A stretch of 64,000 nt of DNA from NCBI GenBank assembly GCA_009760855.2, contig WPIO01000049.1:682001-746000 (forward strand). The letters are read 5' to 3'. Source of the DNA: Cristatella mucedo (Eukaryota > Bryozoa > Phylactolaemata > Cristatellidae). Under the pieces are notes generated by a model. That model was not told the DNA's origin, did not search any database, and worked only from the letters and a program-made list of their open reading frames with translations. The translations under genes and the position numbers were made by a program. Shown here in pieces: positions 22,788 through 56,519 of the stretch; the stretch's first letter is position 1, and the number at the start of each line of letters is the position of its first letter.

Positions 22788-22958
22788 TCAATTCATAGAG
22801 AATGTTGAGTGGGCTCTAAATGTGGGTCTACTGCTACTATCTGCTATCATGCGATCCAGCTCAACAACGTCACCATCAATGGCTCTTCGGAAGTCGGATA
22901 ACTCTCTTGTACTCTTAATGCGCTGATAATTTGCCCCAATTGTCATCAGAAACGTCAC
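22788..22958 (-). CDS. M6: M6-A exon 7: end of fourth span and cytoplasmic tail
   Basis: Acceptor gatgcttcag|GTGACG, stop TGA at 22790-22788. Encodes [20 protein letters not shown], then a charged tail ([20 protein letters not shown]) ending TFSMN. TM4 is split by intron 6 between GL and VTF, as in copy B. Confidence 0.94.
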   Translation of the reverse strand: MTFLMTIGANYQRIKSTRELSDFRRAIDGDVVELDRMIADSSSRPTFRAHSTFSMN

Positions 22959-55800: not shown

Positions 55801-56519
55801 GTGATACCTTGCATGTCATTAACCCTTAGTTACTGCTTCTATTGCAAGAAGTTGCAAAGCACCCAGATGGTGATTTGGATCTCTAAAGGCACTATCCAAG
55901 CAACTTATTAGTATTCTTTAGGAATTCTACAGCAGCATCATAGCCTGACCGATTTAGCATGCATCCATTTCAGTAGCTAACGTAACACCGGTGCACATCC
56001 TCGGCGATTACATAAGTGGAAGTTGAAGAGCCATGTCATGCCTATTCATGCATTACGCACTATGTGAATCGAGGTGGATATGTACTCACTAGATATGCAT
56101 TCCTATTCCCGTATAAATGGGGTTTGATGAAGGAACTACAGGTACTTCCTGTGCATGTTCCACGCGATGCTGCTGCTTGGAGCGTGCGTTCATGGTAGGG
56201 AGCTGCGGCACACAGCCTGCACTCGACACGGATCATAACTACTTTCAAGAAGTGCTGCAAGTATCAGCACAGAAAGCGGGCATGTCAGCAGATGCCATGT
56301 CACGTCGAGGGCGAGACACGCCTGAAAGAGTTATGATTCAGAAGCAAGGCAGCCTGACTCACCACTCAATCTCGATGTTGATATTGAACTTGGATTTTAG
56401 GATTAGCTGCGTATCAGAGACTCCTTCGTAAAGGCACCCGCAAAACAGGCCCGTGCCGACTAGCATGACGAGCGTGGCAACCGCTGACGCATAAGGAAAG
56501 CGCTTGAAGCACGACTCCG
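43512..56519 (-). CDS. M6: M6/PLP-family four-span proteolipid, copy B (exons 2-7, start not located)
   Basis: Second proteolipid gene, head-to-tail with copy A. Minus-strand exons 56519-56363, 50282-50123, 49547-49370, 49095-48998, 46812-46747 and 43676-43512 (824 bp). Adding a 4-bp ATGN first exon would give 275 residues. The exon lengths 157/160/178/98/66 equal those of copy A and every phase agrees; only the last exon differs (165 against 171 bp). By my count 35/53 residues of exon 3 and 40/59 of exon 4 are identical to copy A. Four spans, four loop cysteines (C140, C160, C188, C197 on copy A numbering) and two sequons (NLT at N162, NYS at N172). Tail [19 protein letters not shown] then diverges. 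Exon 1 must end in one base of an NCG codon and should lie above 56520, possibly outside the window. Confidence 0.92.
44930..46020 (+). pseudogene. LINE-1 copy with reverse transcriptase remnant
   Basis: Plus strand, antisense inside M6-B intron 6. [12 protein letters not shown] VTPGLCAW region is shifted, but [20 protein letters not shown] and [20 protein letters not shown] are open, so the catalytic YADD is kept. Further blocks [20 protein letters not shown] and [10 protein letters not shown]. Frameshifts and lack of an ATT tail show it is dead. Confidence 0.85.
46021..46746. other. M6-B intron 6, no further feature recognised
   Basis: Open frames here (up to 154 codons on the plus strand at 46199-46663) have no recognisable domain and overlap no splice-consistent exon. 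Confidence 0.35.
46747..46812 (-). CDS. M6: M6-B exon 6: first half of fourth span
   Basis: Acceptor tgtgttttacag|GTAAAT, donor CTG|GTGAGT. 66 bp: [20 protein letters not shown] plus GL, 17 of 22 residues identical to copy A by my count. Confidence 0.94.
47140..47187. repeat. (CAG)n microsatellite, interrupted
   Basis: CAG units broken by ataggcagcatgag, in M6-B intron 5. Confidence 0.9.
47736..48770 (-). other. unassigned open-frame remnants in M6-B intron 5
   Basis: Minus-strand fragments with an acidic and cysteine-rich character: [20 protein letters not shown] (near 48640), [20 protein letters not shown] then GDVCIHRE (48475-48385), and a separate 89-codon frame 48018-47749 with [20 protein letters not shown]. 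The Cys spacing hints at a zinc-binding domain such as the C-terminal finger of piggyBac-type transposases, but I cannot join the pieces into one known protein. Confidence 0.25.
48998..49095 (-). CDS. M6: M6-B exon 5: large extracellular loop
   Basis: Acceptor tttgcctgcag|GACTGT, donor TGG|GTGAGT. 98 bp: [20 protein letters not shown] then [12 protein letters not shown], with C188 and C197. GC-rich. Confidence 0.94.
49245..49325. repeat. (GA)n microsatellite in a 274-bp intron
   Basis: About 38 GA units between M6-B exons 4 and 5, giving a long CT tract on the sense strand 45 bp after the exon 4 donor. Confidence 0.98.
49370..49547 (-). CDS. M6: M6-B exon 4: third span and start of large loop
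   Basis: Acceptor gccgctttag|TTCATG, donor TTTG|GTGAGA. 178 bp: [20 protein letters not shown] is TM3; [10 protein letters not shown] carries C160 and an NLT sequon that copy A lacks. Confidence 0.95.
50123..50282 (-). CDS. M6: M6-B exon 3: second membrane span
   Basis: Acceptor ccgtctttgcag|GGTCTC, donor CTG|GTAAGA. 160 bp: [40 protein letters not shown] and CIIGGRC. Confidence 0.95.
50990..51110. repeat. (GA)n microsatellite
   Basis: About 120 bp, twice interrupted by agagtgag, in M6-B intron 2. Confidence 0.98.
51230..51850. other. CpG-rich unassigned stretch in M6-B intron 2
   Basis: Unusually GC- and CpG-rich for this gene's introns (for example gtgcgctcgggagagcattcg, gcagcgaccacagtcgccgcg). 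No exon supported on either strand; an alternative promoter is possible. Confidence 0.25.
51985..52750 (+). repeat. LINE-1 copy, internally deleted
   Basis: RT fragments (gccgaccagttcaattc, caagaaagctgccgaag, ctggatttccaggcagc) up to atatgcacatgacacacaac (YADDTQ region), then an abrupt jump at about 52475 to the 3' UTR aacacacctatttaggac and the tail aagcgcctagaaagagatt, gggcgctttatcaagtgc, ATT repeats. M6-B intron 2. Confidence 0.85.
52801..52880. repeat. poly-C and (CT)n microsatellite
   Basis: About 14 C followed by about 60 bp of CT repeats, between two LINE-1 copies in M6-B intron 2. Confidence 0.97.
52900..53830 (+). repeat. LINE-1 copy, 3' half
   Basis: Begins at tgacatttgcacttggatga (the DICTWM block), passes ttgtgacatcacgcctcgac ([12 protein letters not shown] open frame), cttttggatatcgtgctg, and ends with the 3' tail atgcctaaaaagagactt. 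Independent of the previous copy. M6-B intron 2. Confidence 0.85.
54040..54330. repeat. GT-rich low-complexity block
   Basis: Imperfect tgtgtgcatg/gtgtgtgtac words with three tandem catg units (54133-54148). Its complement resembles the CA-rich block at 13340-13460. Confidence 0.6.
54955..55119 (+). repeat. SINE-A copy, well preserved
   Basis: Box A-like gtggcacactaggtaaggcg, box B tgggttcgattcctgc, body cgccactgcaagcggtggtg, tail ctgtttaatcagctagg then TTTATTTATA. Best copy for defining the family. M6-B intron 2. Confidence 0.88.
55440..55920 (+). repeat. LINE-1 3' end (subfamily 2)
   Basis: [18 protein letters not shown] corresponds to '[18 protein letters not shown]'; 3' UTR tgcttgcccaagtgtgat; tail aagcacccagatggtgattt. 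M6-B intron 2. Confidence 0.7.
56363..56519 (-). CDS. M6: M6-B exon 2: first membrane span
   Basis: Acceptor ttttgtag|CGGAGT, donor GAGTG|GTGAGT. 157 bp: [20 protein letters not shown] then [20 protein letters not shown] and IEIEW. This copy keeps the CGC Cys pair after TM1 where copy A has CGF. Confidence 0.94.

Follow-up and report, generated by a model that had tools for sequence, protein, structure and literature searches.

The genome of the bryozoan Cristatella mucedo carries three M6-type proteolipid genes, two of which (A and B) lie head-to-tail in the stretch of DNA analysed here (the window, 64,000 nucleotides, positions 682001-746000 of contig C441) and the third (C) on contig C50, and at both loci M6 adjoins a gene for a DHHC palmitoyltransferase (ZDHHC). 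The gene family itself was already known; what is new is this neighbourhood of two genes at two loci. Judging from its sequence, the tandem pair is real, old and free of signs of decay. The explanation that we consider best, with a probability of roughly 0.8 for its parts taken jointly, combines the M6 identity of A and B, a history in which a linked M6-ZDHHC block would have been duplicated and M6 then copied in tandem, palmitoylation of M6 as a possible mechanism and a possible division of labour between A and B.

Both genes were located by a six-frame self-comparison of the window, and the borders of their exons were set by AG/GT signals together with the reading frame (Table 1). The initial annotation had described two head-to-tail sets of proteolipid exons, five consecutive exons being equal in length and phase (157, 160, 178, 98 and 66 bp) and the introns widely unequal (intron 2 of 825 against 6080 bp). 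All of this was borne out with open frames and canonical borders, and it can now be added that both genes are on the minus strand. From exon 2 to the stop codon, gene B spans 56519-43512 and gene A 29740-22788; AG is present at 12/12 acceptors and GT at 10/10 donors, and the phases are 1, 2, 0, 1, 0, 0 in both. In-frame stops in one copy, which had been named beforehand as counterevidence, are absent from A and B between exon 2 and the terminal stop. Introns 2-6 measure 825, 1448, 168, 1134 and 2548 bp in gene A and 6080, 575, 274, 2185 and 3070 bp in gene B. Each copy has its own predicted set of exons from exon 2 to the stop, which argues against one shared transcription unit that would use the exon sets alternatively.

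First coding exons of a few bases would be expected if these genes are built like human PLP1. The candidate for gene A is the sole ATGN/GTRAG site between 29740 and 43511, with a CpG observed/expected ratio of 1.3 against a window median of 0.76, while the weaker candidate for gene B is one of five ATGG/GT sites in the 27 kb upstream of its exon 2 and has a ratio of 1.18. The distance of 10 kb previously given between the genes holds when the candidate first exon of A is counted (9.9 kb from the stop of B to position 33611), and does not when the interval is taken from the stop of B (43512) to exon 2 of A (29740), which is 13.8 kb.

Table 1. Features of the two M6 loci (window coordinates, except where a contig is named).
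Feature	Position	Strand	Basis or remark
Gene B exon 2, 157 bp; N-terminus, TM1, first extracellular loop	56363..56519	-	AG/GT borders, open frame, Myelin_PLP match
Gene B exon 3, 160 bp; TM2	50123..50282	-	splice borders and frame
Gene B exon 4, 178 bp; TM3, start of second extracellular loop	49370..49547	-	splice borders and frame
Gene B exon 5, 98 bp; second extracellular loop	48998..49095	-	splice borders and frame
Gene B exon 6, 66 bp; TM4	46747..46812	-	splice borders and frame
Gene B last exon, 165 bp including stop; cytoplasmic tail	43512..43676	-	splice border and frame
Gene A exon 2, 157 bp	29584..29740	-	splice borders, frame, Myelin_PLP match
Gene A exon 3, 160 bp	28599..28758	-	splice borders and frame
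Gene A exon 4, 178 bp	26973..27150	-	splice borders and frame
Gene A exon 5, 98 bp	26707..26804	-	splice borders and frame
Gene A exon 6, 66 bp	25507..25572	-	splice borders and frame
Gene A last exon, 171 bp including stop	22788..22958	-	splice border and frame
Candidate first coding exon of A, 4 bp, ATGG before GTGAG donor	33608..33611	-	candidate only
Weak candidate first coding exon of B, ATGG before GTATGA	60878..60881	-	candidate only
C441 ZDHHC conserved exons	C441:750,675 to ~762,539 (window coordinates 68675-80539, beyond the window)	+	divergent from B
C50 ZDHHC conserved exons	C50:489,926 to ~501,495	+	start 2.95 kb after C, same strand

Other features of the window include diverged copies of dispersed elements, containing fragments that look by eye like reverse transcriptase, at 30031-33236, 44905-45956, 51990-53830 and 58389-60125, which occur in both orientations, inside and between the M6 genes. 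Simple repeats are found at 48914-49425, 50962-51324, 52645-53010 and 7720-8178, of the (GA)n type where they separate exon 5 from exon 4 in gene B, and they yield spurious long open reading frames in several frames. No Rfam match at the gathering score and no tRNA (ARAGORN, bacterial code) were found within the window.

Comparison with the Pfam model Myelin_PLP (PF01275) gave E-values of 3.7e-45 for A and 2.3e-44 for B over nearly the full profile, with scores of 154.9, 152.4 and 128.9 bits for A, B and C against a curated cut-off of 23.8, and chance is not a credible source of the A and B matches. In each of the three proteins four transmembrane segments are predicted (Kyte-Doolittle hydropathy above 1.6), near residues 13-32, 60-79, 97-137 and 204-227, with weaker shoulders ahead of the second segment in A and B. 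The second extracellular loop (EC2) holds four cysteines, at 140, 160, 188 and 197 in A and B and at 141, 158, 186 and 195 in C, which align with those of the approximate human and fly sequences used. An N-glycosylation sequon at N162 is present in B and not in A, and C has one at the matching N160 (numbering of the protein with M added). GC3 is 0.50 in A, 0.72 in B and 0.73 in C. A search of the PDB with protein B returned no relative at E<=10. Taken together, A and B are very likely functional M6-type proteolipid genes encoding four-transmembrane proteins of the plasma membrane.

The identity between the two proteins lies slightly below the two thirds first estimated, with 141/220 identical residues over exons 2-6 and 171/274 (62%) overall. 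By codon position, identity is 69% at first, 86% at second and 40% at third positions; differences occur at 49 of the 72 fourfold sites, and dN comes to 0.25, dS being beyond computation. Since synonymous sites are saturated, the split between A and B is very old, and purifying selection has acted on both genes. The saturation, with third positions only 40% identical, also disposes of a recent duplication as the cause of the equal exon lengths. Similarity between the two genes outside the exons resembles dispersed repeats, as judged by eye without a repeat library. That one copy should be a pseudogene in decay, or a duplicate owed to haplotypes or to the assembly, is extremely improbable: neither carries an internal stop, borders are canonical throughout, second positions are so much better conserved than third ones, and the two are far too diverged for an assembly duplicate.

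The equal exon lengths are no special evidence for the duplication, as gene C and human PLP1 have the same phases; the equality is inherited family architecture. Variant names given in the sources place coding borders of human PLP1 at c.4 (PMC3125326; PMC10014006), at c.192, c.453/454 and c.622 (PMC10014006) and at c.696 (PMC12080873). The phases at these five borders are 1, 2, 0, 1, 0, as in A, B and C, in a comparison that covers five borders and assumes that the first junction follows a one-base start of codon 2. The approximate human PLP1, GPM6A and GPM6B sequences have the same four EC2 cysteines. The 66-bp exon is also present in vertebrates, whereas exon 2 is of 157 or 160 bp here against 187 bp in human, and exon 5 of 98 bp here against 74 bp (PLP1 borders). 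The initial annotation had called the vertebrate paralogs unlinked, which is loose, given that PLP1 (Xq22) and GPM6B both lie on the human X chromosome, far apart.

Searches of the whole genome (572 Mb, 688 contigs) placed the family at two loci. The Myelin_PLP model gave four exon matches, on C441 and C50 only, and with protein B as the query all 18 matches at E<=1, among the best 19 candidates that were scored, correspond to six exons each of A, B and C. Gene C has exons of 160, 160, 169, 98 and 66 bp with the phases of A and B, and it is not a retrocopy, since five introns are kept between exons 2 and 7. An open frame that by eye resembles leucine-rich repeats lies at C50:461483-462250, some 21 kb upstream of exon 2 of C. 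Identities to C are 116/271 for A and 128/271 for B.

A tree including human PLP1 (DM20 form), GPM6A, GPM6B and fly M6 as outgroups, all of them approximate sequences, had the form ((A,B),C) against fly and human, with support of 77 for A+B and 100 for A+B+C, and branch lengths of 0.61 for C, 0.57 for A and 0.37 for B. Identity to these outgroups is 24-30%, as against 43-63% among A, B and C; given so large a gap, small errors in the approximate sequences do not endanger the A+B+C clade. The joining of A and B to the exclusion of C is moderately supported. The view that the linked pair arose independently of the vertebrate duplication agrees with this tree, in which neither copy pairs with a vertebrate paralog, the other outcome that had been named as contrary to it; a separate duplication is thus supported for the tandem pair, which is not the whole family, the third gene lying elsewhere. 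A different history, in which A and B are two M6 lineages of the lophotrochozoan or bilaterian ancestor and their tandem arrangement an ancient shared inheritance, has an appreciable chance of being right, well short of even. It would suit the saturated synonymous sites (49/72 fourfold sites differing) and the support of only 77 for A+B against C, while the support of 100 for A+B+C opposes a bilaterian split, though not a split inside Lophotrochozoa.

Known M6 systems offer further comparisons. Identity of A, B and C to the approximate human proteins is 24-28%, and by the tree above the vertebrate multiplication is a separate event. Drosophila M6 belongs to the same family and has the same four-transmembrane layout, with 26-30% identity (approximate fly sequence), and it is described as the sole member of the PLP family in the fly (PMC3095610); there is one M6 gene in Drosophila and there are three here, two of them in tandem. 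M6Aa and M6Ab of zebrafish, given as teleost duplicates of M6A (PMC3197635), are likewise a lineage-specific M6 duplication, but one within a vertebrate paralog. The copies here are head-to-tail, and the linked ZDHHC gene is duplicated as well.

With regard to the position of the organism, the mitochondrial contig C688 (21,008 bp) carries on one strand the order ND1-ND6-CYTB-ND4L-ND4-H-ND5, its protein genes being named by eye and tRNA-His by ARAGORN. A block rrnS-rrnL-nad1-nad6-cob is defined for Lophotrochozoa in a study of mitogenomes of monoplacophorans (PMC5162086), where nad4L-nad4-trnH-nad5 is given as putatively conserved, and the gene order of C688 points to Lophotrochozoa. The contig also contains repeats of 100% identity, in the form of a direct repeat of 2.1 kb and inverted copies of 1.8 kb, which may reflect either a genuine rearrangement of the mitogenome or an artefact of assembly. 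On C166, C83, C549 and C299 there are partial matches to COX1 interrupted by in-frame stops, possibly nuclear copies of mitochondrial DNA.

The palmitoyltransferase genes came out of a comparison of C441:672,101-785,600 (113.5 kb) with C50:456,200-525,500 (69.3 kb). The one on C441 lies just outside the window and so was invisible to the initial annotation. The comparison gave 22 match rows, of which 10 belong to M6, 7 to ZDHHC and 5 to other short matches (12-47 residues) taken as repeat remnants; M6 and ZDHHC are the only families recognised as common to the two loci, and no third shared gene was recognised between these 113.5 and 69.3 kb. Both ZDHHC proteins were assembled manually from their exons, so that their sequences are approximate where exons meet. 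An exon encoding KMDHHCPW with AG/GT borders is present in both genes, in keeping with a DHHC-CRD; the joined proteins without this exon matched Pfam PF01529 at 2.8e-16 and 7.2e-17, and once it is included the motif falls inside the alignments to DHHC20. The nearest relative over the full length is human DHHC20 (2.6e-96 for C441, 3.5e-88 for C50), followed by the structure 6bms, listed only as a palmitoyltransferase, which we take to be zebrafish DHHC15. DHHC20 chains and 6bms scored 280-326 bits, against 67-88 bits (1e-17 to 1e-23) for ZDHHC5, ZDHHC9 and ERF2. ZDHHC2, including mouse Zdhhc2, presumably belongs to the same subfamily as 15 and 20. No NCBIfam match was obtained for the C441 protein, in a library built for prokaryotes.

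The rest of the genome was surveyed for genes of this type in two ways. PF01529 gave 25 matches at about 22 loci (matches less than 10 kb apart counted once), one of them being the C50 exon; the C441 gene was missed owing to its short exons, and the model can thus miss such genes. Twenty of the 24 matches other than that on C50 were fetched, and the IKPDR signature of the subfamily was seen by eye in 0/14 of those that include the stretch before the DHHC motif, this stretch not being visible in the other 6. The C441 protein itself gave 29 matches in the whole genome, 7 on C441, 6 on C50 and 16 elsewhere, the last being all confined to residues 110-221, in the region of the DHHC-CRD with its zinc finger and catalytic part. 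This search thus found two genes of the ZDHHC2/15/20 type, both of them neighbours of M6. The two proteins are 56% identical (155/279), and their identities to DHHC20 are 53 and 47% and to 6bms 49 and 44%. In an unrooted tree of these four sequences, in which the pair is set against only two vertebrate ones, the two were grouped opposite DHHC20 and 6bms with a support of 100, with 22 columns in favour of the pairing against 4 and 3, and the C50 branch is the longer (0.59 vs 0.24). The M6 and ZDHHC trees fit a lineage-specific duplication in both families.

These data make it likely, on the comparison of the two loci, that a linked M6-ZDHHC pair was duplicated as a block. Ancestral neighbours, M6 and a ZDHHC2/15/20-type gene, would have given rise to the C441 and C50 loci; M6 at C441 would then have been duplicated in tandem, long ago and after the block copy, and A and B would both have been retained under purifying selection. 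Co-duplication of the linked pair is what the compatible M6 and ZDHHC trees suggest, the C50 branch being the longest in both (narrowly so for M6). The orientation counts against it, M6 and ZDHHC being divergent at C441 and on the same strand at C50, so that an inversion must be assumed. Less likely, the two loci might have been left over from duplication of the whole genome and not of a small segment, as two paralogous genes on two contigs and the long C50 branches (0.59 vs 0.24 for ZDHHC; 0.61 vs 0.57 and 0.37 for M6) would allow; against this, no third common gene was recognised in the 113.5 and 69.3 kb compared.

The functional side of the block duplication concerns palmitoylation. In fly M6, N-terminal cysteines next to the membrane are reported to carry palmitate, a modification that helps to bring the protein to tricellular junctions; the corresponding cysteines are reported to be palmitoylated in mouse GPM6a, and in both fly and mouse they form a cluster of three (PMC11698045); two N-terminal cysteines are said to be conserved in all PLP/M6 members (PMC3438117). 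As for the enzyme, mouse Gpm6a is reported as palmitoylated by Zdhhc1 and Zdhhc2 (PMC11843170), whereas another review places it under zDHHC1 and not zDHHC2 (PMC12274571). In the mouse case, the enzyme and substrate families match the two neighbours described here; it was reported in mammary stem cells, while here the association is known from gene adjacency. The link between Zdhhc1/Zdhhc2 and Gpm6a in mouse mammary stem cells was reportedly made by Chen in 2024. By analogy, the enzyme encoded by the neighbouring ZDHHC gene may attach palmitate to the N-terminal cysteine of M6, and the palmitate may steer M6 into membrane domains of junctions or filopodia, as reported for fly M6; A and B may in turn split sites of expression or partners. 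In contrast to the cluster of three in fly and mouse, exon 2 encodes a single N-terminal cysteine in each of A, B and C, and this weakens the mechanism if neither exon 1 nor the cytoplasmic loop adds sites.

It is possible that a functional linkage between M6 and ZDHHC has been retained. Against an enzyme-substrate relation, orientations differ by locus and the functional match was noticed after the fact. The adjacency is probably a positional accident, the two genes having been copied together without any working relation, which would leave the history of the genes unchanged: any adjacent pair co-duplicates, with about 22 PF01529 loci a DHHC neighbour is not very rare, the meaningful neighbour was picked post hoc, and the orientation is not conserved. 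What speaks against an accident is that no gene of the ZDHHC2/15/20 type was found in the search with the C441 protein other than those beside M6, and that the subfamily includes mouse Zdhhc2, the enzyme reported for Gpm6a. Among the best-ranked matches in the open-access literature, neither a lophotrochozoan M6 duplication nor M6-ZDHHC synteny was found, which is weak evidence. That M6 and ZDHHC2/15/20 form an old animal neighbourhood of enzyme and substrate, with shared regulation, copying as a unit and expansion in step, seems quite unlikely.

The presence of three M6 genes in a lophotrochozoan provides a second, separate expansion of the family for comparison with the vertebrate one. The linked ZDHHC genes amount to a concrete and testable proposal as to which enzyme palmitoylates M6 and why both genes stay together and, if the reading as an old neighbourhood were true, a modifying enzyme and its proteolipid substrate would have expanded in step in this lineage.
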